A DNA stretch of 64,000 nucleotides from Oceaniferula marina (lineage in GTDB: Bacteria; Verrucomicrobiota; Verrucomicrobiia; Verrucomicrobiales; Akkermansiaceae). The notes under the pieces were generated by a model, which saw only the letters and a list, made by a program, of their open reading frames with translations, did not search any database and was not told where the DNA came from. The DNA lies in the NCBI RefSeq assembly GCF_013391475.1, contig NZ_JACBAZ010000002.1, forward strand, positions 471,104 through 535,103. The letters are read 5' to 3'. Both the position numbers and the translations under genes were made by a program. Shown here piece by piece: positions 1,489 to 17,179 of the stretch; within the stretch, counting starts at the first letter, position 1; each line of letters opens with the position of its first letter.

Positions 1489-1544
1489 ACTTAGAGAATG
1501 TCTTACCTGCTACTGGTTAACACAACAAATTTTATGACCTAGGT

Positions 1545-3035
1545 CTAGGTTTTGGCTTTTTTTCTTTTCTTCTTAGTCTCAGGATTAGGAGCACTTGCTC
1601 GCTCTTTTCTGATGTCAGATTGCATGATCCACTTCTTTTTCTCTATGAGCATTTGCTGAACGTTTTTCAAGGTACTAGCGTGCTCTGGATCTTTCACTAA
1701 GTTAACGAACTGCTGCGGATCTTTGACCATGTCATAGAGCTCAGCTCCATTGTCACCGTTTGCGTATTCAATATAGGCCCAGTTCTTGGTGCGCAGCAGC
1801 ATGCCGCGACCATTCATAGACAGGGCTGCATCACGGACACTGTGGGCCGGGTCATCGAATGTCTTATAGAGGCTCTTGCCTTGAATGTTTTTTGGGATAT
1901 CAAGACCACAGGCTTCGCTGATCGTGGGGTAGAGGTCTACCAGCTCTGTTAGAGTGTGGCAAACAGTGGCTTCTTTCCCTGGTACTTTGATGATCATTGG
2001 GACTCTAGCAGACTCTTCATGAACGCTAATTTTCATCCAGAAGTTGTGCTCACCTAGATGGTATCCATGGTCGCTAGTGAAAATGATGATAGTATCGTCT
2101 TCTAAACCTTGTTCCTTCAATGTGGTTAGTACTTTGCCGACCTGTGCGTCCATGTGCGCCACTGCGGCGTAGTAGGCTGCCACTGCTTTTTTCTCCTGAA
2201 GTGGAGTGACCTTGCGTTCGCTGCTAGTGAACTGCCCCAAGCCAGCTTCTGGGATATCCTCGTGATCTCCTTCTACTTTTTTAGGCATGACGACCTGATC
2301 GATAGGGTAGGCCTCAAAGTATGATTTAGGGGCTACGAATGGGACATGTGGACGAACAAAGCCAACAGCTAAGAAAAAAGGCTTGTCCAAGCTCTGCTTA
2401 TACTCCTTCAGTAATTCACAGGCTTTGTCCGCAGCTTGAGCATCGGCGTAAAGTTCATCCGCTTCACCGCCTTTAACATACTGGAGGTGGTTGCCGAATT
2501 TTACAGGTTTGGTTCCGTCTGGATTACGTTCGAGCATTTCGCCTTCCCCCTCCATATGCATTTCTTGAGCTTTGACGTTGTGGCGCTCGTTCCAGGAAAG
2601 AGCGTCATCAGCGCCATTAGAGCCGCTACAGATATTACCAGGAACATTCATGTGGAAAATCTTGCTAACACGGGCGGTGTGGTAGCCGTTGTTTTGAAAG
2701 TGCTGCGTCCAGGTGATGCGATCACCAATTTGTTTGCGCCCGCTGGCGTAACCCATAGCGCCACTGCCCAGTGGGTAGTAACCTGACATTAATGAGGCAC
2801 GTGATGGGCCGCAGACCGGGAACTGGCAGTAGGTGCGAGTGTAGCGAATGCCTTCAGTGGCAAGCTTGTCGATATTGGGAGTTTTACTGGCTTTGTTCTC
2901 ATAGCATGACAAGGCTCTAGCTGTGAGGTCATCAGCAATGATGAATAGAACGTTCTTCTTTTTCTCAGCGGCAGCACTGAACGTACAGCTAAGCAGTAAA
3001 GCTCCAGTTAGAATTTTTAGGTGTCGGTGTATCAT
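1545..3035 (-). CDS. Secreted sulfatase, iduronate-2-sulfatase-like
   Basis: A 496-residue sulfatase. The signal peptide ends near FSAAA, followed by NVLFIIADDL, the formylglycine motif C75-G-P-S-R79 in a PVCGPSRASLMSG context, and a C-terminal TSDHGYHLGEH block. PVCGPSR together with DHGYHLGEH is typical of iduronate-2-sulfatase-like enzymes, which act on 2-O-sulfated uronic acids in known cases and on fucose or other sulfated sugars in marine bacteria. The protein ends in a strongly basic tail (KKKRKKAKT) beyond the catalytic fold, a feature shared with two other sulfatases here. It is the first gene of a minus-strand run of three sulfatases. Confidence 0.93.
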   Translation of the reverse strand: MIHRHLKILTGALLLSCTFSAAAEKKKNVLFIIADDLTARALSCYENKASKTPNIDKLATEGIRYTRTYCQFPVCGPSRASLMSGYYPLGSGAMGYASGRKQIGDRITWTQHFQNNGYHTARVSKIFHMNVPGNICSGSNGADDALSWNERHNVKAQEMHMEGEGEMLERNPDGTKPVKFGNHLQYVKGGEADELYADAQAADKACELLKEYKQSLDKPFFLAVGFVRPHVPFVAPKSYFEAYPIDQVVMPKKVEGDHEDIPEAGLGQFTSSERKVTPLQEKKAVAAYYAAVAHMDAQVGKVLTTLKEQGLEDDTIIIFTSDHGYHLGEHNFWMKISVHEESARVPMIIKVPGKEATVCHTLTELVDLYPTISEACGLDIPKNIQGKSLYKTFDDPAHSVRDAALSMNGRGMLLRTKNWAYIEYANGDNGAELYDMVKDPQQFVNLVKDPEHASTLKNVQQMLIEKKKWIMQSDIRKERASAPNPETKKKRKKAKT

Positions 3036-3342
3036 ATAATCGGTGTGCGTTATTAATGGGCAGTATTTAGGGCTGCATAGCGAATCTCGAGCTAAAGAAA
3101 CATTTCTTACTCGATTGGGTGATTTTTTGGTCTACGTATTTAAGTGATGATGGCATCCTTCCAGTTTATGGTCCGCCTTGAATCGATTGATGGGTGATCT
3201 TACTTCTACTTCTTTTGATAAGGCTTAGCCGCAATCATAGAGTAACCCCGTCAAGCGGACAGTTCAAAAGTAGATCATTGTGGTGAAAATTCGGGAACCG
3301 CTTCCCAAGTTCCCAAATACTGAATTTTTGTTCATATAATCC
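3036..3342. other. Intergenic region with possible operator palindrome
   Basis: This is the divergent spacer between the sulfatase run on the left and the sigma-factor gene on the right. No gene is supported. The one structured element is GGGAACCGCTTCCC at 3293-3306, an imperfect palindrome with 5-bp arms around a central CG, which resembles LacI-family operators. It is a weak call because no LacI-type repressor lies nearby. Confidence 0.3.
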
Positions 3343-3377
3343 TGCCATACCCTCTAAATGTCCTGACCGCCCGGAAA

Positions 3378-3404
3378 TAACACAAACTTATAAAATTTGT
3401 GTTA
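3378..3404. promoter_or_regulatory. 9-bp perfect inverted repeat upstream of sigma gene
   Basis: TAACACAAA at 3378-3386 and TTTGTGTTA at 3396-3404 form perfect 9-bp arms around a 9-bp AT-rich spacer. The element ends 33 bp before the ATG and overlaps the first GTTAC of the candidate promoter. The second copy at 15278-15304 keeps it with one arm mismatch, so it was part of the duplicated unit. An operator is the likeliest reading. Confidence 0.55.
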
Positions 3405-3422
3405 CTTTACCCTTCTGGTTAC
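3398..3422 (+). promoter_or_regulatory. Candidate ECF promoter, TGTGTTAC-N12-GTTAC
   Basis: TGTGTTAC (3398-3405), 12 bp, then GTTAC (3418-3422). The same two boxes at the same spacing occur before the PEP-CTERM gene (5771-5795). The decayed sigma copy keeps GTTAC-N12-GTTAC (minus strand, 15287-15266). Taking TGTGTT and TACATA as -35 and -10 gives a 16-bp spacer, suitable for an ECF sigma factor. It would start transcription only a few bases before the ATG at 3438, so the message may be nearly leaderless. Autoregulation is inferred. Confidence 0.45.
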
Positions 3423-3437
3423 ATATTATCAATATCG

Positions 3438-3998
3438 ATGGAGAGTTCTCGACAGGATCTGGATAATATCAAGCTGAGCCAAACAGGTGACCTGAATGCG
3501 TTTGGTGTGCTAGTGCGGGCCCATGAGGGCTGGCTTCGGGCTTGGTTGAGATCTCGACTCGCTGATTGGACGGCGGCAGACGATCTCGCGCAGGATACCT
3601 TTGTGACAGCATTTCTGAAAATCCGTGATTTTCGGGGTGAGGGCAGCTTTGAAGCGTGGCTGCAGCGTATTGCCCACAACCATATTCGGAATTATCGCCG
3701 GAAAATGCGGGAGGAATACATCGGAGGCGATCCTGAACTTCAGGTACTTTTAGCAACGGATGATCCGAATGAAACGGTCCACGGTAACGCATCACTCGAT
3801 GCCCTGCACGAATGTCTGACACTTGTGGCAAAACCCGAAATCAAGCTGCTCAATGATCGTTACGCCCTTGGTAAAACCTTGCGAGAGGTTGCTCAGGAAA
3901 CAGGGGCTGGCTATTCCGCTCTGACGATGAAGTTTCATCGGCTCAGACAGTCCCTCGCAGATTGTATTGAAACTAAGTTAAACCCGAAAACACCATGA
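3438..3998 (+). CDS. ECF-like RNA polymerase sigma factor
   Basis: A 186-residue sigma-70 family protein of the ECF-like type common in Planctomycetes and Verrucomicrobia. Region 2 is seen in DDLAQDTFVTAFLKIRDFRG, with core binding and -10 recognition; region 4 in LGKTLREVAQETGAGYSALTMKFHRLRQSL, a helix-turn-helix for the -35 box. ATG 3438 is chosen over an upstream in-frame GTG at 3399 because that GTG lies inside the inverted repeat and candidate promoter, and because the decayed copy aligns at this ATG. The stop overlaps the next gene's start (ATGA), so it is translationally coupled to a FecR-domain partner that probably controls its activity. Likely targets are nearby sulfatase and PEP-CTERM genes. 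Confidence 0.9.
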   Translation: MESSRQDLDNIKLSQTGDLNAFGVLVRAHEGWLRAWLRSRLADWTAADDLAQDTFVTAFLKIRDFRGEGSFEAWLQRIAHNHIRNYRRKMREEYIGGDPELQVLLATDDPNETVHGNASLDALHECLTLVAKPEIKLLNDRYALGKTLREVAQETGAGYSALTMKFHRLRQSLADCIETKLNPKTP

Positions 3999-5593
3999 AT
4001 AAGAAAAACCATATTTTGGCATTATTGGCTCTTGTGCAGGACGGTGAGGCGACACCAGTCCAGGTCTCCGAGTTAAAAGAGGTCCTGCGTGAAGATGCGT
4101 CTCTCCTTGAATTGGCTAGAACGCAGAACCAAATGCATGCCCGGCTCAGTGTTATTCTTGAGGACGAGGTCTCCAGCGAAAGAAGAGTTCAGGGCATTTT
4201 AGACAGCCTGAAGGATGCCGAGACGAATCAGTTTGTCGACAGGGTAGGGCGAAGGTTGAGTCTGCTTCGCTGGAGGAAGTGGGCGATGACTGCTGCAGCA
4301 TTGGTGATGATTGGTTTGGTTTCAGGGATATATTTTTATCAGCACAGGTCGGCTCAGCACAGGTCGGATCAATCCGTGATGGCAACTTTGCAGCGGGCTA
4401 TTGGAGTGCAGTGGTCAGGTGCCGCTATCGGCAATGGTTCGGTGCTCACGGCTGGGGCATCGGTAGAGATTGAAAAGGGTCTGTTGGAGTTCGAACTGGC
4501 CGGTCGAGGTCGACTGATCGTGGAGGGTCCCGCCCAACTGAATTTTCCGGAAGACGGGCGTGCCATTTTACATCAGGGACGTGTCGTAATGCGGGCCACG
4601 GAGAAAGGGCGCGGCTACAGGATAGAAACGCCTCAAGGCAAGATTATCGATATTAGTACCGAGTTCGGTGTTGCCGTGCTTTCCAATGGGCTGGTGGAAA
4701 CTCACGTTATCGAGGGCAGTATCGAGGCAATTTCTAACGATGGTAAACGTGTGACTTTGACCCGCAATGATGCTATGGAAATGGGGCCCGATGGAGGCAA
4801 GCTAATCGCTGCCGATGCCGGTCAGTTTTATACCCTGATGCCGCCTCCGTCCGAATCGAAACCCGAGTTTATCCACTGGTCATTTAACGAAGCCGAAGGC
4901 AACATCGCTCACAGCCGGGGTGAGTTGGCCGCAACGATAGCAAACAAAGCCGATATGATTTTTCACAAGATGGGTCAGGGGGCATTACCATCAAGGGTTC
5001 CGGGGCCGACCCCTGAGGCGGGAAATGCCCTGCGTTTTGACGGCAAGGGGAGTTATGCCGAGAGTGGTTACCGTGGTATTGGCGGCGGGAAACCCCGCAC
5101 GGTATGTTTCTGGCTTAAGGTGCCTGAAGACTTTTCTGTGAGACAGGGATTTGGAATTGTATCCTGGGGAAAACATCCTCTTCCTGGTGAGGTCTGGCAG
5201 CTATCGGTTAATCCACTGGCTAAAGATGGCCCCATCGGGCGACTCCGGTTGGGCCTTGAGGGGGGGCAAATCATAGGTTCGTCCGACTTGCGTGACGGCA
5301 AATGGCATCACATCGGTGTTGTCATGTATGGAGGGGGTCAACCGAATGTGGGGACCCATGTTATTCTTTATATTGATGGTGAACTGGAGCGTCTATCTCG
5401 CAGATCTTTGCAGGAAGTCCGCACAGAAATCGATCAGGCCACGCACGGTGTCTGGCTTGGACGTAATGTCGTCTATTTGAAAGATCGACCACACCCGCAC
5501 GGCGGTTTCTTCCGTGGTGAAATTGATGATCTCTACATCTTTGATGCCTCATTGAGTCAGAGTGAGTTGCTGCAATTAATGGAGGGAAACTGA
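3995..5593 (+). CDS. FecR-domain and LamG-domain membrane protein, putative anti-sigma partner
   Basis: A 532-residue protein in three parts. Residues 1-92 are soluble, predicted cytoplasmic, and acidic with helices, as in anti-sigma segments. One membrane helix lies near 94-114 (WAMTAAALVMIGLVSGIYF). Outside the membrane there is a FecR domain at about 140-280 (GRGRLIVEGPAQLNF, IETPQGKIIDISTEFGVAV) and a concanavalin-like LamG domain at about 290-525 (FIHWSFNEAEGN, GNALRFDGKGSYAE, TVCFWLKVP, DGKWHHIGVV). The LamG fold often binds sugars, so the protein could sense an outer glycan and release the sigma factor, by analogy with FecR-FecI. It overlaps the sigma gene by 4 bp. A 15-bp tandem duplication just after the membrane helix encodes QHRSAQHRS. 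No TonB receptor is present beside it. Confidence 0.85.
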   Translation: MNKKNHILALLALVQDGEATPVQVSELKEVLREDASLLELARTQNQMHARLSVILEDEVSSERRVQGILDSLKDAETNQFVDRVGRRLSLLRWRKWAMTAAALVMIGLVSGIYFYQHRSAQHRSDQSVMATLQRAIGVQWSGAAIGNGSVLTAGASVEIEKGLLEFELAGRGRLIVEGPAQLNFPEDGRAILHQGRVVMRATEKGRGYRIETPQGKIIDISTEFGVAVLSNGLVETHVIEGSIEAISNDGKRVTLTRNDAMEMGPDGGKLIAADAGQFYTLMPPPSESKPEFIHWSFNEAEGNIAHSRGELAATIANKADMIFHKMGQGALPSRVPGPTPEAGNALRFDGKGSYAESGYRGIGGGKPRTVCFWLKVPEDFSVRQGFGIVSWGKHPLPGEVWQLSVNPLAKDGPIGRLRLGLEGGQIIGSSDLRDGKWHHIGVVMYGGGQPNVGTHVILYIDGELERLSRRSLQEVRTEIDQATHGVWLGRNVVYLKDRPHPHGGFFRGEIDDLYIFDASLSQSELLQLMEGN

Positions 5594-5897
5594 ACGACCC
5601 CGGGCGATTCTATCTGATCCAGGGAGTAACATTCTCCGAGAAGCCCTTCTCCAAGTCTGCCAATCCAGCTCAATTCAACGGCCCGCCCCTAAAATCGGGC
5701 CGCTAATCCCGCCATTGTTTTCAGGAATTGAGGGTGATTTGGGCGCTTGCATGAAAAAAATGCAATTCCATGTGTTACTTTTTGCGTGCCGTTACTTCTT
5801 ATATCTAAGAGAGAACATTTTAAAGTTCATCTTGAAGCGCCGAGATCACGTCTGCAATGATAGATTTAAGGCCACAAACTAACATGAATCAAACGAT
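5594..5897. other. Intergenic region with stem-loop and promoter-like element
   Basis: This 304-bp gap follows the FecR-LamG gene. CGGCCCG (5679-5685) and CGGGCCG (5696-5702) form a 7-bp GC-rich stem with a 10-base loop and no T run, so it may weakly terminate or stabilise the upstream message. The promoter-like element at 5771-5795 is listed separately. No open frame here looks coding. Confidence 0.45.
5771..5795 (+). promoter_or_regulatory. Candidate sigma-dependent promoter of the PEP-CTERM gene
   Basis: TGTGTTAC at 5771-5778, 12 bp, then GTTAC at 5791-5795. Sequence and spacing match the element before the sigma-factor gene, though the surrounding bases are unrelated. That argues for a conserved binding site rather than a copied segment. 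The distance to the first start codon is 102 bp. Confidence 0.45.
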
Positions 5898-5932
5898 ATG
5901 AAAACAAACTACCATCAATCAAACGATATGAA
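5885..5932 (+). repeat. Tandem duplication carrying the start codon
   Basis: AATCAAACGATATGAA occurs at 5887-5902 and again at 5917-5932, a 30-bp period. Each copy contains an ATG (5898 and 5928) in the same frame, so the PEP-CTERM gene has a duplicated start region. Confidence 0.7.
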
Positions 5933-6686
5933 TAATTTGAACCAGGCAAGCACCTGGGGCAATTATATGACCCGTTCCGTATCACTCACCGTCCTAGGCC
6001 TCGCACTGAGTTCAGCTTCCCATGCCGCAGTCCTCGTCGAATATCCGTTTGCCGGTTCATTGGTCTCAACCGACAGCTCGATCTACTCGTCCGTGTCCAC
6101 CTACGACGTGCGCTCCGCAGCCATCGGGGCGGCTGACGACCCCGGCACGGACTATGACGATGACTCAGCTATCTCAGGCAATGACGGTGTCTTCATGCGT
6201 GCGCAGAACACCCCCACCAACACCAGCCCGGTTGGCGTATTCTACCACTCTTTCAGTATGACGGTTCAGAACCTCGGCGTGGGTGAGATTCTCAATCTCA
6301 CCACTCTTGACTTCAAGTATTACGCGAGCAGAATCGACGGAACCTTCTCCCTTGGTCTCTATTCGGATGCGGTCGGATACACCGGCACGGGCGACAAGCT
6401 CACCACTACCACTAACATCAACGCCAACGAGGGATCCACCTTCAGTATCGACCTGACCTCGACCAACACGGTTGCAGGCACTGCCTTTACCGGCCTCACC
6501 AACGGCGATACGATCGATTTTCGCTTCTATTTCGCCGACAATGCCTCCTCCATTAACACCGATAACCAAATCCACCGTCTCGACGATATCTCCATCAACG
6601 GGGTAGTCACAGCCATTCCCGAGCCATCCTCCGCAGCGCTGCTCGGACTCGGCCTCCTGACACTCTGCAATCGTCGTCGGCGCTAG
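5898..6686 (+). CDS. PEP-CTERM sorting-domain protein
   Basis: A secreted protein of up to 262 residues. The start is uncertain: ATGs at 5898, 5928 and 5967 are in frame. The last gives the most normal signal peptide (MTRSVSLTVLGLALSSASHA). The mature part is a Thr-, Ser-, Asp- and Asn-rich, probably all-beta domain that I do not recognise. The C-terminus is a PEP-CTERM signal: IPEPSSAALLGLGLLTLC, a hydrophobic stretch, then RRRR. Such tails are recognised by an exosortase that moves or anchors proteins at the envelope or in the exopolysaccharide matrix; no exosortase gene is in this window. It shares the promoter-like element of the sigma gene and is followed by a strong terminator. Confidence 0.85.
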   Translation: MKTNYHQSNDMNNLNQASTWGNYMTRSVSLTVLGLALSSASHAAVLVEYPFAGSLVSTDSSIYSSVSTYDVRSAAIGAADDPGTDYDDDSAISGNDGVFMRAQNTPTNTSPVGVFYHSFSMTVQNLGVGEILNLTTLDFKYYASRIDGTFSLGLYSDAVGYTGTGDKLTTTTNINANEGSTFSIDLTSTNTVAGTAFTGLTNGDTIDFRFYFADNASSINTDNQIHRLDDISINGVVTAIPEPSSAALLGLGLLTLCNRRRR

Positions 6687-6706
6687 TTAAAGTCATAAAA
6701 ATTGGG

Positions 6707-6740
6707 AAAGGCTGGCGTCCCTGTGTGGGTTCCAGCCTTT
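6707..6740 (+). terminator. Rho-independent terminator after PEP-CTERM gene
   Basis: AAAGGCTGG (6707-6715) pairs perfectly with CCAGCCTTT (6732-6740) and runs into a T tract ending at 6742. It lies 21 bp past the stop codon. Confidence 0.8.
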
Positions 6741-6905
6741 TTCCTAGGTGACCGCACTCCAGACACTATCAGATCAAACCATTTAATAGGGTTCAATGAA
6801 TCATTGTACCCTATCAAATGACATTCACGGTGTAAGAGTGGTTGTTGAAATCCGCTAAGATAACCCCTCAAATTTGAGTGGAAAATATCCCAACCTTAAA
6901 AATAT

Positions 6906-9737
6906 ATGAAAATATACCTACTAGCCTTTACCTGTCTTTTCACCGCGTTCTCCACGGCTGATGCAGAAGAGCAATACAGCGGTGTTTACCCGCACCTGAC
7001 AATGTATAACAATGAGGGCGAGTGCGGCACCGGCGCTGTGGTTCCGTGGGCGGGGAAACTCTGGGTGATTACCTATGCCCCACATTTGCCAAAGGGCTCA
7101 TCTGATAAGCTCTATGAAATCACGGCTGACTTGAAACAGCTTATCCGACCCGAGAGCATCGGTGGCACACCTGCCAACCGGATGATTCATCGTGAATCTA
7201 AGCAACTTTTCATCGGACCCTACGCGATCGATGCCGAAGGTAAGGTCCGCGTGATTCCTTATGATAAAATGCCTGGACGGCATACTGGCAATGCAAGGCA
7301 CCTAACTGACCCTGCTGGCAAGATTTACTATGCGACCATGGAAGAAGGGCTCTATACCGTTAATGTGGATACATTGGCCGTGGAAGAGCATATCAAAGAT
7401 GGGAACTCTGGAATCAAAGTGGTTGGAGAGGGTGTGAAATCCATGCTGCATGGCTATCACGGGAAAGGACTCTATTCCGGACAGGGGCGTGTGATCTATT
7501 CCAATAACGGGATGAAGAGTGGAGCGGCCAGGAAAAACCCCACAACGACATCCGGTGCCCTTGCTCAATGGTTTGGTGAGGGCGACTGGCAGCTCGTCCG
7601 AAAAAACCAGTTTACCGAAGTCACTGGACCTGGTGGAATATATGGAAGCAAACACCCCGCAACGGATCCCGTCTGGACCATGGGCTGGGACGCGCGCTCA
7701 CTTCTTCTCGGGCTGCTTGAAAACGGAGAATGGACGTTTTACCGCCTGCCCAAAGGCAGTCACTCCTACGATGGTGCTCACGGCTGGAATACCGAATGGC
7801 CCCGTATCCGCGAAATCGGAGAAGATGATTTTCTCGCCACTATGCATGGCACCTTTTGGCGCTTTCCGCCAACGTTCTCTACAGCCAATTCGGCTGGCAT
7901 TGTTCCACGTTCCAACTACCTCAAGGTTATCGGTGATTTTTGCAAATGGAACGACCGGATCGTCTTCGGTTGTGATGACTCAGCCAAAGCGGAATTTCTG
8001 AACACGCGGACTTACAAGGCCAAACACGGGGCCGCTAGGCAGTCCAACTCCAACCTCTGGTTTGTTGAGCCGACGCAGCTCGACACCCTCGGCCCTCTCA
8101 TCGGACGCGGTTCCGTCTGGTTGCGCGACGACGTCAAAGCCAATGTCGCCAGCGACCCCTACCTCTTTTCTGGCTATGATTATCGCCAACTCTGCTTAAC
8201 GCACTCCAGCTCTTCACCTGTCACCTTCACTCTCGAAGTGGATAAGGAAGGGACTGGCAAATGGACGACGCTCCGCAACATCACAGTCGGCTCTAACGGA
8301 TCGGCCATTCACCAGTTCACGGCAGAGGAAATAGGCGAATGGATTCGGCTCACGGCGGATCAGAATGCCACCGGTGTTAGCGCCCATTTCCAATTCCGCA
8401 ATCGCGACCTGCGCCCGGCGATAAACGATTCGTTGTTCGACGGTATTGCTACTCTGGAGAAGACTGCAACTACCACCGGCGTAATGCGTAGCCTCGCTTA
8501 TGACAAACTGGGCATCGCGCTCACGGATGGCGGCTACTATGAGCTGAACCCGCAAATGGAGTTCACCAAAGTTAATGATGCTAAACAGGCTGCAGCATTG
8601 ATCAAAGCGGTCAAACAGCCAGCCAAGGCATTTCGCGTCGATGCAGCATCGGTGATACTGGAAGAAGACGGGCAGCGCTATCGGTTTCCGAAGAGTGATC
8701 GCTATACATCCCCATCCTCGCCACCTGTAAAGCTCGAGAACCTGGCCGCAGGGGCAAAGGTTGTCGCCAGTTCAACACACCAGACAGACTTCGCCGCCGC
8801 AAATATTGTGGACGGTAAGACGGGGGAAGATTCCCGCTGGATTTCCAAACAGTCCGGTGAAAAATGGGTCGAGATCGATCTCGGTGAAACAAAGCAATTT
8901 CGTAGTATTCAAATCATCACCGGATGGAAGCGTGAAGCCAACTACAGCGTCGACAACATCGCAGTGCAAACCAAGGTGGATGGCGCATGGGAAACACTCC
9001 CGGGAGCTGAAATTCGTGATAATCAATCGATAGAAATCACCATTAATTTGCCGAAGCCTGTTTCCGCGCAAGAGTTGCGATTGGTTTCGACTGATCAGCG
9101 GCATGTTCGCATTTACGAAGTGGCACTCTACAACCAGATCCTGCAACCAGCCGTCACTGAAAGTCTGGCGCGGGTCTGTCGTGAAGTCGCCACCGAGCGC
9201 GATCTGCTCAACCTGCACGGCACCTTCTACGAATTGCCTGCTCGCAATGCGCAGGGCGTCGCCAAGGTCCGCCCCGTGGCGAGTCATAACCTTGCCATCC
9301 ACGATTTCTGCTCCCACAACGGACTGCTTTACTTCACCGGGTTGGACGCTGAAACAAAGAGTAGGCACATTCTACGCAGTGCAGACGGCAAGGCCGCCAT
9401 CTGGGCAGGTGTGGTCGATGATCTTTGGAAGCTCGGCAAGCCGCGTGGGCAAGGCGGCCCGTGGAAAGATTCGCAGGTCAAAGCCGGCGTCCCGTCCGAT
9501 CCCTATCTCATGACTGCCTACGACGAAAAAAGTGTCGAACTCTCTGCTGAATCGGATGCGCGTATCACATTAGAAGTGGATCTTGATGGCACAGGTCTGT
9601 GGGTGCCTTATAATATTTTCGAACTCAAAGCCGAAGAGACCGTGACGCACAATTTCCCAGAAGGCTTCAGCGCCTATTGGGTGCGTGCAGTGAGCGATGC
9701 CGACACTACAGCAACTGTCTGGTTTAAATATGAATAG
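6906..9737 (+). CDS. Large secreted discoidin-domain protein, function unknown
   Basis: A 943-residue protein with a signal peptide (cut near STADA). Residues 25-390 are rich in short beta strands (LWVITYAPHL, LFIGPYAIDAEG, KIYYATMEEGLYTV) and are probably a beta-propeller. Residues about 607-745 are an F5/8-type C (discoidin, CBM32-like) domain: AANIVDGKTGEDSRWIS, WVEIDLGETKQFRSIQI, ELRLVSTDQRHVRIYEV. The segment at about 400-500 is repeated at about 845-943 (SDPYLFSGYD and SDPYLMTAYD; LEVDKEGTGKW and LEVDLDGTGLW), so the protein carries an internal duplication. A carbohydrate-binding or glycan-processing role fits the sulfatase neighbours, but no catalytic motif is recognised. Its stop overlaps the start of the mosaic remnant at 9730. 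Confidence 0.8.
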   Translation: MKIYLLAFTCLFTAFSTADAEEQYSGVYPHLTMYNNEGECGTGAVVPWAGKLWVITYAPHLPKGSSDKLYEITADLKQLIRPESIGGTPANRMIHRESKQLFIGPYAIDAEGKVRVIPYDKMPGRHTGNARHLTDPAGKIYYATMEEGLYTVNVDTLAVEEHIKDGNSGIKVVGEGVKSMLHGYHGKGLYSGQGRVIYSNNGMKSGAARKNPTTTSGALAQWFGEGDWQLVRKNQFTEVTGPGGIYGSKHPATDPVWTMGWDARSLLLGLLENGEWTFYRLPKGSHSYDGAHGWNTEWPRIREIGEDDFLATMHGTFWRFPPTFSTANSAGIVPRSNYLKVIGDFCKWNDRIVFGCDDSAKAEFLNTRTYKAKHGAARQSNSNLWFVEPTQLDTLGPLIGRGSVWLRDDVKANVASDPYLFSGYDYRQLCLTHSSSSPVTFTLEVDKEGTGKWTTLRNITVGSNGSAIHQFTAEEIGEWIRLTADQNATGVSAHFQFRNRDLRPAINDSLFDGIATLEKTATTTGVMRSLAYDKLGIALTDGGYYELNPQMEFTKVNDAKQAAALIKAVKQPAKAFRVDAASVILEEDGQRYRFPKSDRYTSPSSPPVKLENLAAGAKVVASSTHQTDFAAANIVDGKTGEDSRWISKQSGEKWVEIDLGETKQFRSIQIITGWKREANYSVDNIAVQTKVDGAWETLPGAEIRDNQSIEITINLPKPVSAQELRLVSTDQRHVRIYEVALYNQILQPAVTESLARVCREVATERDLLNLHGTFYELPARNAQGVAKVRPVASHNLAIHDFCSHNGLLYFTGLDAETKSRHILRSADGKAAIWAGVVDDLWKLGKPRGQGGPWKDSQVKAGVPSDPYLMTAYDEKSVELSAESDARITLEVDLDGTGLWVPYNIFELKAEETVTHNFPEGFSAYWVRAVSDADTTATVWFKYE

Positions 9738-9912
9738 TTTGCTGAAACCGATTGTCGCCGCCGTGTTCGCGTTGCTCCCGGTTTGTTCTCTGGGAGCTGC
9801 GCCCGTGGGGGACGATCTGGGCTATGTCGACCTGTCCTACACGGGGTTGGCCAAAGTTTCGTATAAATCCGGAGGAGCAACGTTCACACGAAAATACCTT
9901 TGTTTCCGTTAA
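9730..9912 (+). pseudogene. Mosaic remnant: sulfatase-like leader fused to GH95 fragment
   Basis: An ATG overlapping the previous gene's stop opens a 60-codon frame. The first part is a good signal peptide (MNSLLKPIVAAVFALLPVCS) followed by GDDLGYVDLSYTG, the metal-binding start of a sulfatase from which the usual first strand is missing. The second part, 9848-9911, is a near-exact copy of an internal segment of the GH95 gene (31639-31701, minus strand) with one extra A, so GH95 residues AKVSYKSGGATFTR are followed by a frameshift. Neither half can be functional. It records deletion and illegitimate recombination in this cluster. Confidence 0.8.
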
Positions 9913-9935
9913 CCATCATGCAACAAGTAAAGACA

Positions 9936-11663
9936 ATGAAAATAGACCTGATTAGCCATATTTGTAATCATCTTATGCTCGGCCTGACTATAGGCTTCGC
10001 ATTGCTTATGGACAGCACCATGGCATCTGTGTTGCCCAAAACGGATCAACCGAATATTATCATTATTATGACGGACGATATGGGGTTCTCTGATCTCGGT
10101 TGCTACGGCAGTGAAATCAAAACACCCCACCTTGATACTCTCGCCCATAAAGGTATTCGCTTTACCCGGTTCTATAACACGGGACGCTGTTGCCCAACCC
10201 GTGCCAGCCTCTTGACCGGTCTATACCAGCACCAAGCAGGTGTTGGCAATATGACGAATGACGCGGGTCCAAGCAAACCGGGTTATCGTGGTAGGTTGAT
10301 GGAACGTTGCGTCACGATTGCTGAAGTTCTTGGACAAGGCGGATACAGGACTATTCAAACAGGCAAGTGGCATGTGGGCGACAAGAAAAAGGAGTGGCTG
10401 CCGTCGGGCCGAGGTTTTGACCGTAACTACAGTTGCCCTCAGGGTGGTGGGTTCTACTTCCGCCCATCGGCATTTAAAAAAGAGCGTCATGTAGTCCGTG
10501 GGAATGAAGTCCTCTACAACAAACAGAAGGATCCTCCCGAAGGTTGGTATGCCACCGATGCGTGGACGGACGAAGGCCTCAAGTATGTCCGCGAAGCGGT
10601 TGAAGAGAAGAAGCCATTTCTATGGTATCTCGCCCATAATGCCCCGCATTACCCACTGAAAGCAAAGCCGGAAGATATCGCCAAGTACCGTGGTAAATAC
10701 AAAATAGGGTGGGATGCGATACGCCAGCAACGCTACGAAAAACTCATCAAACTTGGCATCATTGACCCGAAGTGGAAGCTCTCTACCCGCGAGAAAGGCA
10801 TTCCCGCATGGGACAGTCTTTCAGAGAAGCAGAAGGATGAGCAGGATCTAAGAATGGCAACCTATGCCGCCATGATTGACTGCGTTGATCAAAATGTTGG
10901 AAAGATCGTGGCAACCTTGAAGCAGCTAGAGGTTTACGAGAACACACTGATTCTATTCCTTCATGATAATGGCGGATGCGCCGAAGGTGGAACCATGGGT
11001 AGAAATACAGGTAAAGGCATTTGTGGCACAGCGGAATCGTTTGCTCTTTACGGAGCATGCTGGGCGAATGTGTCTGATACGCCGTTCCGGAAGTATAAAA
11101 AATTTATTCACGAAGGTGGCATTTCCTCACCGTTGATTGCCCACTGGCCCAAAGGTATCAATGCCAAATTAAACGGAAAACTTACCTCTGAACCCACCCA
11201 CCTTATTGACTTAATGGCTACCTGCGTGGATCTATCTGGCAGCTCCTACCCAGAATCCTTTAAGGGAAACGAGATCATTCCTATGGAGGGAGTCAGCCTT
11301 AACCCCATCTTTCAAGGGAAGCAATTTAAACGCAACGCACCTCTCTTTTTTGAACATGTTGGCAATCGAGGAATCCGTTACGGCAAGTGGAAACTTGTAG
11401 CCGTCAAAGGAAAACCATGGGAACTCTACGATATGCAGGCCGACCGAACAGAACGCAACAACATGGCAAAAGAACTTCCAGAGAAAGTAAAGGAGCTGAC
11501 GAACCTTTATAAAGCGTGGGCCGAACGGAGTTTCGTTACAAAAAACATGAACTTTATCAAGTATGATGAGTTTAAGAGCCCCATTATCAACCCCTTATCA
11601 ACTCATTATCAACTCATTATCAACTCATTATCAACTCATTATCAACTCATTATCAACCCATGA
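9936..11663 (+). CDS. Arylsulfatase-like sulfatase
   Basis: A 575-residue sulfatase. ATG 9936 gives a plausible long signal peptide (cut near DSTMAS); ATGs at 9918 and an earlier weak start are in frame but lie on or next to the GH95 fragment. IIIIMTDDMGFSDLGCYG binds metal. The formylglycine motif is C85-C-P-T-R89 inside NTGRCCPTRASLLTGLYQHQ, the pattern of arylsulfatases A/AtsA. KWHVG and HDNGG follow. Normal sulfatase sequence ends near NFIKYDEF; after it the frame runs through an 11-bp tandem repeat that adds about 28 residues. The last codon overlaps an ATG (ATGA at 11660), but the next sulfatase probably starts 96 bp later. Confidence 0.92.
   Translation: MKIDLISHICNHLMLGLTIGFALLMDSTMASVLPKTDQPNIIIIMTDDMGFSDLGCYGSEIKTPHLDTLAHKGIRFTRFYNTGRCCPTRASLLTGLYQHQAGVGNMTNDAGPSKPGYRGRLMERCVTIAEVLGQGGYRTIQTGKWHVGDKKKEWLPSGRGFDRNYSCPQGGGFYFRPSAFKKERHVVRGNEVLYNKQKDPPEGWYATDAWTDEGLKYVREAVEEKKPFLWYLAHNAPHYPLKAKPEDIAKYRGKYKIGWDAIRQQRYEKLIKLGIIDPKWKLSTREKGIPAWDSLSEKQKDEQDLRMATYAAMIDCVDQNVGKIVATLKQLEVYENTLILFLHDNGGCAEGGTMGRNTGKGICGTAESFALYGACWANVSDTPFRKYKKFIHEGGISSPLIAHWPKGINAKLNGKLTSEPTHLIDLMATCVDLSGSSYPESFKGNEIIPMEGVSLNPIFQGKQFKRNAPLFFEHVGNRGIRYGKWKLVAVKGKPWELYDMQADRTERNNMAKELPEKVKELTNLYKAWAERSFVTKNMNFIKYDEFKSPIINPLSTHYQLIINSLSTHYQLIINP
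11584..11660 (+). repeat. 11-bp tandem repeat at the sulfatase 3' end
   Basis: Seven consecutive units of TTATCAACTCA occur: five perfect (11595-11649) and a degenerate one on each side. Because 11 is not a multiple of 3, three units encode an 11-residue period (LSTHYQLIINS). The array forms the C-terminus of the upstream sulfatase, so a change in unit number would shift its frame and stop codon. Confidence 0.9.
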
Positions 11664-11755
11664 AAGCCCTTCCCGCCACCTTACCAAAAAAGGAAATTTC
11701 TAGCAGTATGTTTTATTTAGCTGTATGTTTTATTTTAAACAAGAGCCAACTCACT

Positions 11756-13291
11756 ATGATAAAAAAAGTAGCTCAAATGGGCTTGGTGGGGCTTTTGACA
11801 AGCTCTGCTTTAGCGGGAGAGAAGCCAAATATTATCTTCATTTTTGCAGATGATATGGGGGTGGGCGATGTGTCGCACACCACGGGGAGGGCCCCAACGC
11901 CGCATCTCGACCGACTAGCCAAGGAAGGCATGCAATTCACGGACGCGCATACAACCTCCTCTGTCTGCACACCATCACGCTATGGGCTGCTCACTGGCAG
12001 ATACAACTGGCGCACGCGATTGCAAAAATGGGTGTTCAGCAAGCCAGAGTGTCAGCCTTTGATCAAGGAAGGTGAGTCTACAGTGGCTTCGCTGTTGAAA
12101 TCACAAGGGTATGATACTGCTATCGTAGGAAAGTGGCATTTGGGGATAGGTTGGCACATTATTGATGGCTCCAAGCCTAAGAAAGGCCAAACAGGGCCTG
12201 GATGGAACATCGACTACATAAAACCTGCTGTGACACCAACTTCGAATGGGTTTGATTATTTCTACGGGATTGCTGCTTCGTTAGATATGCCCCCGTATGT
12301 ATATATTCATAACAACAAAGCCATACAGGTTCCGTCTGTTTCAAAGGGTGTTCCATCTATCAAGGGCGGGATTGCTCGGGTTGGTGCTGCGGCATCTGAT
12401 TTCGAAGCCAACGAGTGCCTCAAAGTGTTTGCTCAGAAATCGGTTGAATATATCAATGAGCAGAAGAATTCCGAGAGGCCGTTCTTCCTCTATCTGCCAC
12501 TGACCTCACCACACACACCGATTGTGCCGAGTAAGGAGTGGTTAGGGAAATCACCAATCGGTAAGTATGGCGACTTCTTGATGGAAACCGATTGGGTTGT
12601 TGGGGAGGTGTTGAAAGCCCTTGATGACAACCAGCTTGCGGCGAATACGTTGATCATTTTTTCCACTGATAACGGCTGCTCTCCCGCTGCTAATATCAAG
12701 GCTCTCCAAAAGAAGGGACATTTTCCGAGTGGTGAACTACGAGGCCACAAGGCGGATATTTATGAAGGGGGGCATCGAGTTCCTACAATTGCTCGATGGC
12801 CGAAGGTGATCAAGCCAGGTACTAAGACTGATCGTCTCACCACCCTTGCGGATTTCTATGCGACCTGTGCTGAGATTACTGGGGTCAAGATGGCTCCTAA
12901 GGCAGGGGTGGATAGCGTCTCGTTTCTACCGTCTTTGAAGAACCCAAAGCTAGTCGATCGTAGCGCGATAGTGATGCACTCCGCTACTGGTTCCTTTGCG
13001 ATCCGTCAGGGTGACTGGAAATTATGCTTCTGCGGTGGCTCTGCTGGTTGGAGTAAACCGGCGCAAGCTCCTCCTGGAGCACCAAAGTGGCAGCTGTATA
13101 ATCTAAAGGATGACTTGGCGGAGACCAAGAACCTCTACGATGAACATCCTGAAAGAGTGAAAGAGCTCCACAGTCTGATGCTGGAATACATCACGAATGG
13201 GCGTAGCACTCCTGGGCCCAAGCAGGCGAATGACGTCAAGGGGGTCAGTCTCGGAAAAGAAAAGCGAAAGAAGTCAAAAACAAAGAAGTAA
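11756..13291 (+). CDS. Secreted sulfatase with basic C-terminal tail
   Basis: ATG 11756 gives a 511-residue protein with a compact signal peptide (MIKKVAQMGLVGLLTSSALA). An in-frame ATG at 11660 would add 32 unlikely residues. NIIFIFADDMGVGD is the metal site and C71-T-P-S-R75 the formylglycine motif, in TTSSVCTPSRYGLLTGRYNW. GKWHLGIGWH and STDNGCSP complete the active site. The family resembles secreted sulfatases of marine polysaccharide loci. The C-terminus is strongly basic (GKEKRKKSKTKK), as in the sulfatases at 1545 and 13464. The stop codon sits in a 20-bp palindrome. Confidence 0.92.
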   Translation: MIKKVAQMGLVGLLTSSALAGEKPNIIFIFADDMGVGDVSHTTGRAPTPHLDRLAKEGMQFTDAHTTSSVCTPSRYGLLTGRYNWRTRLQKWVFSKPECQPLIKEGESTVASLLKSQGYDTAIVGKWHLGIGWHIIDGSKPKKGQTGPGWNIDYIKPAVTPTSNGFDYFYGIAASLDMPPYVYIHNNKAIQVPSVSKGVPSIKGGIARVGAAASDFEANECLKVFAQKSVEYINEQKNSERPFFLYLPLTSPHTPIVPSKEWLGKSPIGKYGDFLMETDWVVGEVLKALDDNQLAANTLIIFSTDNGCSPAANIKALQKKGHFPSGELRGHKADIYEGGHRVPTIARWPKVIKPGTKTDRLTTLADFYATCAEITGVKMAPKAGVDSVSFLPSLKNPKLVDRSAIVMHSATGSFAIRQGDWKLCFCGGSAGWSKPAQAPPGAPKWQLYNLKDDLAETKNLYDEHPERVKELHSLMLEYITNGRSTPGPKQANDVKGVSLGKEKRKKSKTKK

Positions 13292-13307
13292 AGTTCATGA
13301 ACTTTAC
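13288..13307. repeat. 20-bp perfect palindrome over a stop codon
   Basis: GTAAAGTTCATGAACTTTAC reads the same on both strands and contains the TAA stop of the upstream sulfatase. No T run follows. It could be a protein-binding site or a hairpin that protects the 3' end. The 156 bp after it, up to the next start, hold no supported gene. Confidence 0.6.
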
Positions 13308-13463
13308 ACCCTTTATATGTGCCTTGGCAGTGCCTTTAATCAACCACGGCAAGCATAAATTCAGCTCCATCATCGGTGGCCGGTCAGGTGAAGCCTGTAG
13401 CTTGACATCAGTGCGTAGGCAAGGCCTACTGTCCCGATATTGACTCAAAACAGGAAACAAAAC

Positions 13464-14999
13464 ATGACGAATAACAAGGTAATCGCGACACTTTGTGCAG
13501 TTACGACAATCGCAAGCGGTTGCGGAGTCCAAGCTGCGGAGCCACCTATAGAGAACAAGCCAAACGTACTGTTTGTCCTGATCGACGACTTTGGTTGGAA
13601 AGACGTTGGCTACAACGGTTCTACGTTTTACGAAACTCCGGAACTCGACAAGCTGTCCAAGGACTTTATGCGGTTTGACCGGTGTTACACCCCCAGCCCC
13701 ATGTGCTCTCCCACCCGAGTCAGTATAATGACCGGCAAGAACCCGGCCCGCCACGGCGTTACCCAATGGTTGCCTGGGAAAGCGACATGGCCGAATCACC
13801 CGGTTGCGCATCAACGCGTTATCTGCAAAGTGCCAAAGAGCCCAGCCATCAAAAATTCGGAAGTAACACTTGGAGAGGCACTGCAGAAGGTCGGATATGA
13901 AACGGCATTCTATGGCAAATGGCACATGGGACCATTGAAGAAGACAGGGGGGCCGAAGGCTCACGGATTCGACAGTCAGATGGCTGTCATCGAAGCCAAC
14001 AGGTGCGCCATGTTCTATCCATTCAGAGGACATCCGGAGTATTTTCCAGCGGCCAAAGAAGGCGACAATTTCACTGACCTTCTCACGAATAATGCCATTG
14101 AGTTTGTCAGTAAGAAGCGGGATAAGCCGTTCTTCCTTTACCTAGCCCACTTTGCCATGCATGCCCCCATTGCGTCAAAGCCGGAACTGGAAAAGAAATT
14201 TGCAGAGAAAGCCAGGAAACTTTCACCCATGTCGGAAGACGAATTAAAGGTTAAGGATTCTCATGCACATCAGCCCTATAACCGGCGTCAACAGTTCCCC
14301 GACTACGCTGGCGAGCTTGCCACACTGGATGAGAATATTGGCAAACTGATCCAGTCACTGAAGGATACAGGCCAATATGACAACACCATCATCTTCATCA
14401 CCGGCGACAATGGTGGGCGCACCGCGTTCTTCCATAGTTCGCCGACTGCCGTCCAACCCTTGCGCGCCGGCAAGACTTTCACCTTCGAAGGCGGTCTCAG
14501 AACTCCACTTCTGATCCATTGGCCGGGAGCCACCAAACCCGGCATGCACACTCAAACGTCAGTCACCAGCACCGACTTTTACCCAACCATCCTCGGCATG
14601 CTCGGCTTGCCACTTCAGCCGGAACAACACAAGGATGGCGTCAGCTTGCTCCCGTTGTTCAAGGACCGTAAGTTGTCTCGAAATGCTATGTATTGGCATT
14701 TCCCTCACTACCAAGGCGAAGGCAGCTATCCGAGCAGTGCTATCCGTCAGGACGACTTCAAACTGATCGTCAACTATCATCTCAAAGACGTACAACTATT
14801 TAACGTTGTCGACGATATTGGTGAGACCAATGACCTTGCCGGTAGCATGCCGGAAAAGGTTAAGGTCATGAGAAATAAACTGATGGATTATCTCAAGGAA
14901 ACGGGTGCGCACATTCCGACCGACAACCCAAGATACAATCCCAAAGCAAAGCCCATCCCGGCAAAGAAGGCTAAGGACGCCAAGGAAAAGAAGAAGTAG
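13464..14999 (+). CDS. Secreted sulfatase with Lys-rich C-terminal tail
   Basis: ATG 13464, preceded by CAGGAAAC, gives a 511-residue protein; an upstream in-frame TTG at 13440 is less likely. The signal region ends TTIASGCGVQA, where Cys20 could be a lipidation site, although the -3 residue is unusual. PNVLFVLIDDFGWKD binds metal and C81-S-P-T-R85 is the formylglycine motif. GKWHMG and TGDNGG follow. It is a paralogue of the sulfatase at 28221-29687: both share FYETP, SPxCSPTR and TGKNPxR, and a late VTSTDFYPT block. The C-terminus is a low-complexity basic tail (PIPAKKAKDAKEKKK). It is the last gene before the decayed sigma copy. Confidence 0.92.
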   Translation: MTNNKVIATLCAVTTIASGCGVQAAEPPIENKPNVLFVLIDDFGWKDVGYNGSTFYETPELDKLSKDFMRFDRCYTPSPMCSPTRVSIMTGKNPARHGVTQWLPGKATWPNHPVAHQRVICKVPKSPAIKNSEVTLGEALQKVGYETAFYGKWHMGPLKKTGGPKAHGFDSQMAVIEANRCAMFYPFRGHPEYFPAAKEGDNFTDLLTNNAIEFVSKKRDKPFFLYLAHFAMHAPIASKPELEKKFAEKARKLSPMSEDELKVKDSHAHQPYNRRQQFPDYAGELATLDENIGKLIQSLKDTGQYDNTIIFITGDNGGRTAFFHSSPTAVQPLRAGKTFTFEGGLRTPLLIHWPGATKPGMHTQTSVTSTDFYPTILGMLGLPLQPEQHKDGVSLLPLFKDRKLSRNAMYWHFPHYQGEGSYPSSAIRQDDFKLIVNYHLKDVQLFNVVDDIGETNDLAGSMPEKVKVMRNKLMDYLKETGAHIPTDNPRYNPKAKPIPAKKAKDAKEKKK

Positions 15000-15150
15000 A
15001 AATCCAGGGTGATGGCCACACTGCCGAGCTTTCTCCACCTACAGAACCGTTCTCCCGCGCTTCAACATTCTGTTGGCAAGGAAGACCTCTGGAACGACAC
15101 CAAGGTCGTTGCCTTGGTCGGGTTGGTATAGAATGAAAAGGTTAACGGAT
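15000..15150. other. Intergenic stretch before the sigma remnant
   Basis: No gene is supported. One short open stretch reads GKEDLWNDTKVVALVGLV and may be a broken gene end, but it is too short to assign. It abuts inverted-repeat copy B. Confidence 0.3.
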
Positions 15151-15345
15151 GATCTCAACCAACTTCGAAGCCAGCCCTCATGGGCGCACATCAGCATACC
15201 AAACGCATTCAGATCATTTGTTTGGCTCAGTTTGATTGTCGAGTGCTCTCCATTGATATTAATATGTAACCAAAAGGGGGGAGTAACAAAAATTTCATAA
15301 GTTTGTGTTATTTCCGGGCGGCTAGGACATTTAGAGAGTATGGCA
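15151..15345 (-). pseudogene. Inverted-repeat copy B: decayed sigma-factor promoter and 5' end
   Basis: Read on the minus strand, this is a diverged copy of 3343-3553. It starts with the same TGCCATAC, keeps the GTTAC-N12-GTTAC element and the inverted repeat with one mismatch, and has an ATG aligned to the sigma start. A 13-bp deletion after the fifth codon breaks the frame, and homology stops at the equivalent of codon 38. The promoter element would fire leftward, against the sulfatase genes. It marks the right edge of the sigma-sulfatase block. Confidence 0.85.
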
Positions 15346-15437
15346 TTAAGTTACTATAATGAAAAACGAGCAAATCATACGCGGCATCGCACAGCGGAAG
15401 TAAAAAACAAAAAGTAATAATCTTTAATAACAATAAT
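15346..15437 (+). promoter_or_regulatory. AT-rich leader of the GH29 gene
   Basis: After the sigma remnant the sequence turns very AT-rich (TAATCTTTAATAACAATAAT directly before the ATG). There is no Shine-Dalgarno sequence, as is common for Bacteroidota genes and unlike several neighbours. The exact promoter cannot be placed. Confidence 0.35.
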
Positions 15438-17033
15438 ATGCATACAAAACATTTCATTTTGATTTTAGTCTTACTAACATCTATAAGTATCCCATGTTTC
15501 TCCCAGGAGAAAGATCTTACATGGGAAGAATTACGCGAGCATTATGAATGTCCAAGCTGGTTTGCTGAAGCCCGGTTTGGTATTTGGGCACATTGGGGAG
15601 CGCAAACACAGCCTGAAATGGGTGGCGGTTGGTATGCTCGGCATATGTATCAGCAGGACGTTGGAGGACAGCAATGGGGAAAGAATGCCTACGAGTACCA
15701 TTGTAAAACGTATGGACACCCTTCAGAAATAGGATTCAAAGATGTAATCAATGAATGGAAAGCAGAAAAGTTAGATACCGACGCTCTACTAAAGTATTTC
15801 AAGAGCATAGGAGCTAAGTACTTTATGATTATGGCGAATCACCACGACCGTTTTGATAATTTCAATTCAACACATCATAAATGGAATTCTGTAAATATAG
15901 GACCAAAGCGTGATATCGTTGGAGAATTTGAAAAATCTTCAAGAAAATATGGGCTCCCTTTCGCTGTAAGCTCGCATGATGATCGATCTCTTAGCTGGTG
16001 GTTACCTGCATTTGGTGCAGATAAAAGCGGACCCTACAAAGGGGTTCCTTATGATGGACACATGACCAAAGAAGATGGTATTGGGAAATGGTGGGAAGGA
16101 TTTGACCCATCTGAGCTTTATGGCTTACCTCCAGAAAAGAGAACGCCCGAATGGATTAAACAGATGAAGGAAAATTGGGTTTTACGTCATAAAGAACTGG
16201 TGACAAAATATGATATAGACATGCTTTGGTTTGATGGCGGGGGGTTCCCGTATGGAAATTATGGAAAAGAAGTATGCACAACTTATTATAATCATAGGCT
16301 GAATGAAGATGGTAAATTAGATGCTGTGGTGGTTGGTAAATTTAAGAATGAACCATCAACAATCGGTGATGTTGAACAAGGCGGATCCAACAAAATACTT
16401 CCTTCTCCTTGGCAAGGTACAATCACATTTAACAGTTGGTTTTATAAGAAAGACAGACCAAGCAGATATAACGCTCGCGTAGTAATTGAAATGTTGGCTG
16501 ACATGAATAGTAAGAATGGAAACATGTTGTTGAATGTAGAGTTATTGCCAGATGGTACCATACCAAAAGACCACAAGGTAATTCTCGACGAGGTCGGAGC
16601 ATGGGTTAATCTAAACAGTGAAGCTATTTACGCAAGTAAACCATGGAGGATTTATGGTGACAATCTTGATTCTTATAAAAGGGATCCTGAAAGAAAGAAT
16701 ATTAGTGAAGTTGATGTGAGAGGTCTTAAAAAGAGAAAAGATAACACTCATTTTAACTCAAGAACCATAAATAGCCCGGCTTTTGGAAACGATGAGGTGC
16801 GCTTTACAACAAAGGGCGATGCATTGTACGTTTTTGTGCTTAATCCGAAAGAAGGAGAAATTGAACTAACGTCGCTGGGCTCAACGTCAACCAACAACGC
16901 TAAAAAAATTAGTTCCATCAAAATGTTGGGAAGCGATTCTGTAATTGAGTTTAAACAATATCCCAAAAAGTTGGTGCTTAAAGTCCCGGGCAAGCGGCCG
17001 AGTAAGTATGCAAGCGTTTTTAAAGTTGAGTAG
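15438..17033 (+). CDS. Alpha-L-fucosidase, GH29
   Basis: A 531-residue GH29 enzyme that releases alpha-linked L-fucose with retention. The signal peptide ends CFSQ, followed by WFAEARFGIWAHWGAQT, the conserved start of the GH29 barrel, then FKSIGAKYFMIMANHHDRF and DIDMLWFDGGG. Asp266 of the WFDGG motif is the expected nucleophile. A beta-sandwich follows. The gene is distinctly AT-rich, lacks an obvious ribosome binding site and has a Bacteroidota-like SQ signal cleavage, all unlike its neighbours, which suggests horizontal transfer. It lies between the sigma remnant and an IS3 remnant. Secretion suggests action on oligosaccharides in the periplasm or outside the cell. Confidence 0.93.
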   Translation: MHTKHFILILVLLTSISIPCFSQEKDLTWEELREHYECPSWFAEARFGIWAHWGAQTQPEMGGGWYARHMYQQDVGGQQWGKNAYEYHCKTYGHPSEIGFKDVINEWKAEKLDTDALLKYFKSIGAKYFMIMANHHDRFDNFNSTHHKWNSVNIGPKRDIVGEFEKSSRKYGLPFAVSSHDDRSLSWWLPAFGADKSGPYKGVPYDGHMTKEDGIGKWWEGFDPSELYGLPPEKRTPEWIKQMKENWVLRHKELVTKYDIDMLWFDGGGFPYGNYGKEVCTTYYNHRLNEDGKLDAVVVGKFKNEPSTIGDVEQGGSNKILPSPWQGTITFNSWFYKKDRPSRYNARVVIEMLADMNSKNGNMLLNVELLPDGTIPKDHKVILDEVGAWVNLNSEAIYASKPWRIYGDNLDSYKRDPERKNISEVDVRGLKKRKDNTHFNSRTINSPAFGNDEVRFTTKGDALYVFVLNPKEGEIELTSLGSTSTNNAKKISSIKMLGSDSVIEFKQYPKKLVLKVPGKRPSKYASVFKVE

Positions 17034-17103
17034 TTGTTAGTAGGTGTTGAAGGAGCGTGTCTCATTCTTAAGCCGCCGGCCGCAGTTACATTAACCTTGG
17101 CTG

Positions 17104-17179
17104 CTCCTGCTGACCTGCTGGATAATACCGACTTCTGCTATGAAGTTAAAACGGGCATTGAGACACAATTTCCATTGAC
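17104..17179 (+). repeat. 76-bp direct repeat, copy 1
   Basis: Identical over 76 bp to 20331-20406. In one frame it encodes PADLLDNTDFCYEVKTGIET, probably part of an unidentified beta-rich protein. Here it is interrupted by the IS3 left end. Confidence 0.85.

Follow-up and report, generated by a model that had tools for sequence, protein, structure and literature searches.

A regulatory fragment that comes to lie before a new gene changes that gene's control, as in mobile promoters and horizontal regulatory transfer, and the gain of genes by bacterial regulons is mostly inferred from the comparison of finished regulons. For extracytoplasmic function (ECF) sigma factors, PMC8103513 and a second ECF paper give a general scheme: the usual, though not universal, promoter has AAC at -35 and CGT at -10, the sigma gene is autoregulated, and targets are found through the promoter motif. 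PMC8103513 describes FecI-like sigma factors as exceptions to autoregulation. Here we describe a 64,000-nucleotide stretch of the genome of Oceaniferula marina (contig NZ_JACBAZ010000002.1, positions 471,104 to 535,103; hereafter the window), in which the upstream region and 5′ end of an ECF sigma gene recur as an inverted repeat around a block of sulfatase genes. Both copies contain a conserved two-box motif that is tied to the clade of this sigma factor, and the right copy has one intact and one decayed half. Judging from the sequence, the probable explanation is that the divergent promoter of an autoregulated operon of ECF sigma and FecR-LamG genes has a second copy before an alpha-L-fucosidase gene, which puts the fucosidase in the sigma regulon.

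Local alignment places the boundaries of the two copies exactly at 3343-3553 on the forward strand and 15345-15151 on the reverse strand, with a score of 242, whereas 300 shuffles reached no more than 26. In blastn they are 81% identical over 211 bp (E 1.4e-55), and a repeat search of the window returns two arm pairs, 90% and 86% complementary. A preliminary description of this DNA had taken the segments for copies of one sequence, comprising the upstream region and first 38 codons of an ECF-like sigma gene, with the right copy decayed by a 13-bp loss in its coding part; the significant pairwise alignment bears this out and adds a loss of 3 bp from the leader. The genes it had placed between the repeats (sigma, FecR-LamG, PEP-CTERM, discoidin and three sulfatases) agree with the domain scan. 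The duplicated coding part is 116 bp long, i.e., 38 codons and two bases, and differs between the copies by 14 mismatches and the 13-bp gap, which shifts the frame. Changes at codon positions 1, 2 and 3 number 6, 2 and 6, too few to date the loss of function. In the organism's own genome (5.07 Mb, 88 contigs), the repeat DNA was found at these two places only (E about 1e-53), not in the many copies expected of a dispersed family such as repetitive extragenic palindromes or miniature inverted-repeat transposable elements. Two further points were unmentioned in the preliminary description: the non-coding part of the repeat holds two divergent promoter-like elements of one type, back to back, which we call P-sigma (facing the sigma gene) and P-div (facing away from it), and the first gene beyond the right copy, on its right side, encodes an alpha-L-fucosidase.

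The motif has the form TGTGTTAC-N13-TGACACTC, with box starts 21 nt apart, and often occurs in both directions. It was followed through a family set of 260 genomes, of which 31 (our own included) have the sigma factor at E 1e-35, with surroundings beyond 1.5 kb read for part of them only. Six of 38 loci (L053-L058) were dropped from the orthologue counts as repeats, three of the relatives' 33 places had no locus and were left out, and a site was called at a score of at least 9 of 12, forward, within 150 bp upstream. By this measure the motif precedes 22 of the 26 distinct sigma orthologues that are at least 48% identical, against none of the six below 48%; among more distant ECF loci it precedes one of eight (score 9.0). 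A reverse site accompanies 12 of the 26, and in 11 the motif occurs in both directions within 330 bp. Spacings of 19 and 23 also give matches, but most of these are the 21-nt sites again, displaced along an ACAC or TGTG run.

From relatives' sites only (n=23), though picked with a consensus read by eye, we built a matrix. An in-frame start codon follows box 2 by 5-13 nt at 22 of these 23 sites, the position expected of a -10 element with a nearly leaderless message. This suggests that the sigma messages of this clade may be leaderless, for example at L053, L057 and L059. We infer that this sigma factor uses the motif as its promoter; the presence of the motif upstream of 22 of 26 orthologues would fit autoregulation.

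With the relatives' matrix, four sites of the block rank first to fourth in the 64 kb: 3384(-), 15304(+), 1524(-) and 3398(+). Scores of 20.7, 20.7 and 19.7 for the first three exceed the best of every one of five shuffles (13.8-17.2), whereas that of P-sigma, 14.8, is exceeded by the best of three of the five, so that its assignment rests on position and orthology. The next matches in the window, 55965(-) at 13.5 and 1135(+) at 13.0, were taken as chance. Across the 5.07 Mb of the genome, the pattern TGTGTTA-N16-ACAY has seven sites, against two for a reversed control. Five of the seven lie inside the window, where shuffles give 0.08, and the other two precede a DeoR-like regulator and a transposase-like gene (names by sequence reading).

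In 14 sigma neighbourhoods of relatives (L058 and L059 being one assembly), the sigma gene is always accompanied by a FecR-LamG homologue, and 11 of the 14 also have a discoidin-protein homologue. The block that the preliminary description had marked out was not found as such in these relatives: they keep the sigma and FecR-LamG genes, but the block's sulfatases are not there (best identity in the 14 neighbourhoods 38%), nor does the fucosidase have a match in them at E 1e-20. The sigma, FecR-LamG and discoidin proteins look like a core, to which the sulfatases and fucosidase would be local additions. The same site also precedes other genes of relatives. It lies before PEP-CTERM genes beside the sigma gene in G013 and G022 (Pfam-confirmed) and one each in L058 and L059 (by eye), before an oxidoreductase gene in G022, and before discoidin-protein homologues in G012, G013, G138, G019 and G241, in the last two on a contig other than that of the sigma gene. 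A second L058 gene and one L060 gene also have the site; their products look secreted but show no PEP-CTERM end. A tighter pattern finds 18 sites in 13 of 25 genomes (24 of them relatives), against three for a reversed control. Another pattern, run across 58 genomes, gives seven matches against three in the control; the sigma clusters of G000, G013 and G022 account for four of the seven, and another precedes the G019 discoidin homologue.

The two halves of the right copy have fared differently. Between the copies, P-div has changed at none of its 16 box bases and two of 13 spacer bases, and P-sigma at one of 16 box bases and four of 13 spacer bases. The leftward element of the right copy has TTTG instead of TGTG, the loss of a near-invariant base of box 1. 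The earlier claim that the right copy keeps the promoter element holds for the element facing the fucosidase, which is intact and has its box 2 105 nt before the ATG, and not for the one facing the last sulfatase. An antisense promoter into that last sulfatase, also proposed in the preliminary description, was rejected, as the leftward element is without TGTG and drops in score from 14.8 to 8.3, while the intact element faces the other way. An intact fucosidase-facing half beside a decayed second half and a decayed scrap of sigma gene is what one would predict had the fucosidase retained its working half. In this reading the fucosidase would be transcribed from the copied promoter, which selection would have kept.

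Taken together, the left repeat would be a divergent promoter region, with one sigma-dependent promoter directed rightward into the sigma gene and the other leftward into a sulfatase gene. In the right repeat that region would recur, together with a scrap of the sigma gene, just upstream of the fucosidase; here the P-div half is retained, while P-sigma and the sigma fragment, now a scar, decay. The FecR-LamG protein is predicted to hold the sigma factor and to release it on sensing a ligand, by its domains probably a glycan. Released sigma would then drive joint transcription of its own operon, of both sulfatase genes on the left and of the fucosidase gene. Judging from enzyme names, the combination of sulfatases and fucosidase suggests a sulfated fucose-containing glycan. 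More tentatively, we speculate that a divergent, self-activating sigma promoter is a portable regulatory cassette: since it fires in both directions, a landed copy could recruit a gene, after which the unused half and the sigma scar would decay. The window might then be a fossil of regulon expansion, in which a fucosidase joined a sulfatase regulon for one sulfated glycan. The features concerned are collected in Table 1.

Table 1. Repeat copies, promoter-like sites and genes of the block, in window coordinates
Feature	Position	Strand	Basis and remarks
Left (source-like) repeat copy: divergent promoter region and first 38 sigma codons	3343..3553	+	Pairwise alignment with 15151-15345
Right repeat copy: divergent promoter region and decayed sigma 5′ end, with 13-bp and 3-bp losses	15151..15345	-	Pairwise alignment
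P-sigma, TGTGTTAC-N13-TTACATAT, 11 nt before sigma ATG	3398..3426	+	Orthologue footprint; matrix 14.8, rank 4
P-div, TGTGTTAT-N13-GGACATTT, facing sulfatase 1545-3035	3356..3384	-	Matrix 20.7, joint rank 1
P-div copy in right repeat, both boxes as in left copy, facing fucosidase	15304..15332	+	Matrix 20.7, joint rank 1
Decayed P-sigma copy, box 1 TTTGTTAC	15262..15290	-	Matrix 8.3 against 14.8 on the left; 5 mismatches in 29 bp
Putative promoter of the same type, 7 nt before start codon of sulfatase 106-1488	1496..1524	-	Matrix 19.7, rank 3
Weak, unproven candidate of the same type before PEP-CTERM gene	5771..5799	+	Matrix 10.4, below the best of all 5 shuffles
ECF sigma factor gene	3438..3998	+	Sigma70_r2 2e-16; TIGR02937 above cut-off
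FecR-LamG protein, likely anti-sigma factor	3995..5593	+	Laminin_G_3 2.4e-10; FecR just under cut-off
PEP-CTERM protein	5898..6686	+	Domain scan
Discoidin-domain (F5/8 type C) secreted protein	6906..9737	+	Domain scan; relatives' homologues have the same promoter type
Sulfatase	9900..11663	+	Domain scan
Sulfatase	11660..13291	+	Domain scan
Sulfatase adjoining right copy (third and last of block)	13440..14999	+	Domain scan
Alpha-L-fucosidase, predicted target of copied promoter	15438..17033	+	Alpha_L_fucos 1.3e-73; 105 nt from box 2 to ATG
Sulfatase, predicted P-div target	1545..3035	-	Name from sequence and similarity to other sulfatases; 320-nt leader
Sulfatase, predicted target of the 1524 promoter	106..1488	-	Name from sequence and similarity to other sulfatases

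Several observations weigh against this explanation. The upstream regions from which the first consensus was taken by eye included the window, which makes that consensus circular. Its boxes, TGTGTTAC and TGACACTC, depart from the AAC and CGT typical of ECF promoters. Four of the 26 orthologues have no good site directly upstream of the sigma gene, two of which (G012 and G241) have one before the discoidin-protein gene. The tighter pattern is absent from 12 of the 25 genomes, and four of its 18 sites lie before unrelated genes or none (G143:C13, G241:C145, G243:C164 and G000:C4). At the right copy, the contrast between the intact and decayed halves comes down to a few bases and is not significant alone. 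The predicted leaders are long, about 100 nt for the fucosidase and 320 nt from P-div to sulfatase 1545-3035. Finally, a sigma-70-like match (10/12) lies before the fucosidase at 15332-15360, one of two such matches in the region, where shuffles give 0.9.

The alternative that survives best concerns origin alone, and would leave the present function the same. The right copy may be the remnant of a full second module of sigma and FecR genes, once divergent to the fucosidase, whose genes were deleted while the promoter was kept for the fucosidase; we regard this as a serious possibility, short of an even chance. It is made plausible by relatives with sigma paralogues at E 1e-35, two in G159 and three in G170. 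Further, the assembly with L058 and L059 has two paralogues, each with a divergent site pair facing related secreted-protein genes, the one facing the L059 pair encoding a protein that ends in PEP-CTERM. Yet neither FecR nor sigma sequence past about codon 41 turns up a second time, whether beside the right copy or in the rest of the window, in a search at E 1 whose sole FecR match is at chance level (E 0.81). The missing FecR trace slightly favours the copying of a 211-bp segment over a lost module. At residues that differ between the copies, those of four orthologues that share either residue share that of the left copy; although the sample is small, this makes the right copy look like a decayed copy. 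Synteny searches in 58 genomes (own included) found, for the fucosidase, at best 52% identity over 202 residues in another genome at E 1e-60 and, for the third sulfatase, a best relative of 58% in another family. With no close relative of either, there is no empty site to compare.

That the right copy is a neutral leftover of a chance segmental duplication, with the fucosidase read from its own sigma-70 type promoter, seems unlikely to us. The 81% identity, the broken sigma fragment and the sigma-70-like match at 15332-15360 all fit such a leftover; the fucosidase-facing boxes, on the other hand, are unchanged, share the best score of the window and point in the right direction. Somewhat less likely still is that the two boxes serve as the operator of a transcription factor whose gene lies elsewhere, rather than as the promoter of this sigma factor. 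Two helical turns between the boxes would allow binding by a dimer, and in the window box 1 of one direction is palindromic with box 1 of the other (TAACACAAA/TTTGTGTTA). Against an operator, the motif tracks the sigma clade at the 48% boundary, lies 5-13 nt before a start codon at 22 of 23 sites, and before some genes occurs in one direction only.

We consider it very improbable that the repeats bound a mobile or invertible cassette, a possibility raised in the preliminary description. In its favour, the copies are inverted and bracket a block, and insertion-sequence remnants lie close by (17179-17395 and 21535-21751). Against it, no recombinase or transposase was found among 10 scanned proteins (3399-21516, including the seven between the repeats), the copies are gapped, diverged and found at two places only, their content is accounted for by promoter and coding make-up, and none of the relatives' 14 sigma neighbourhoods showed the block. 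Searches of 57 other genomes for the repeat DNA gave nothing beyond a portion of the coding stretch in G012, and, with the block absent from the relatives compared, neither orientation could be compared. A plasmid origin was likewise rejected, as 3260-5600, the part of the block searched, had no match in a plasmid collection. Viral matches were four in number and weak (33-40% identity).

The insertion-sequence remnants, which lie further right than the repeats, deserve a description of their own. A 217-bp element is present in three copies, 17179-17395, 21535-21751 and C2:469061-469277 elsewhere in the genome, 94-98% identical to the first. The reading 17216-17455 of the first copy matches an IS66-type TnpA model (29 against a cut-off of 28), and remnants lie on both sides of the sulfatase and fucosidase region. 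Further, 76 bp are identical between 17104-17179, past the fucosidase gene and abutting the remnant, and 20331-20406, past the gene for a protein of glycoside hydrolase family GH115.

Assignment of the sigma gene to the ECF superfamily follows from Sigma70_r2 at 59.9 bits (cut-off 24) and TIGR02937 at 68.5 (cut-off 42.9). In its neighbour, whose gene start overlaps the end of the sigma gene, the FecR domain scores 21.3 bits against a cut-off of 24 (E 0.00039), and hydropathy gives one membrane segment at about residues 96-114; a single membrane segment and a gene adjoining that of the sigma factor are among the features of a FecR-type anti-sigma factor. To the right of the fucosidase stand the GH115 protein and then a GH43-like protein, the GH43 match being under its cut-off. 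Between the discoidin and first sulfatase genes, 9738-9893 resembles, by reading, the broken start of a sulfatase gene, and 9848-9893 has a 46-bp perfect inverted match at 31656-31701. The third sulfatase, as a query of the organism's own 5-Mb genome, gave 154 first-look candidates, 25 of which were scored. Far to the right, an 83-bp unit is present in five copies at 58405-61367 (64-71% identical to a reference copy), perhaps within a long repetitive surface protein.

A search of the literature on ECF factors with FecR, LamG or Verrucomicrobia, confined to titles and abstract starts and with most subscription journals outside its reach, gave no description of the promoter of this clade among the matches listed. 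The present result offers a testable promoter motif for a sigma clade of Verrucomicrobia that stands beside FecR-LamG proteins, and connects that clade with PEP-CTERM proteins, with a discoidin protein and, in this genome, also with sulfatases and a fucosidase. The scar of the sigma gene identifies the promoter to which the right copy corresponds, and the contrast between the intact half of that copy and its decayed half suggests the direction that was retained. If the explanation that we prefer is true, the window holds an apparent fossil of a gene being added to a bacterial control circuit. As with mobile promoters, a regulatory fragment lies before another gene; the difference is that the matching region is a sigma factor's own divergent promoter in the same genome, as the coding scar shows, with no evidence of horizontal movement.

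Among described families, the sigma protein is matched best by TIGR02989, the Rhodopirellula/Verrucomicrobium sigma-70 family of NCBIfam, over residues 21-177 and nearly the whole profile, with a score just under the cut-off (122.6 against 124.55). The gene order, an ECF sigma factor and then a FecR-type protein that has a single membrane segment, resembles FecI-FecR surface signalling. It differs in the LamG domain, in that no TonB receptor was found among the 10 scanned proteins, and in the motif preceding the sigma gene, whereas FecI-like sigma factors are excepted from autoregulation. With ECF sigma systems at large, as described in PMC8103513, the locus shares a two-box motif of its own before the sigma gene, an operon with a presumed anti-sigma gene, and a small local regulon that a motif scan can find. 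Its boxes are TGTGTTAC and TGACACTC where that account has AAC and CGT. Set against the same account, the promoter here is often divergent and apparently nearly leaderless, and has a second copy, marked by a scar of the sigma gene, in front of another gene.

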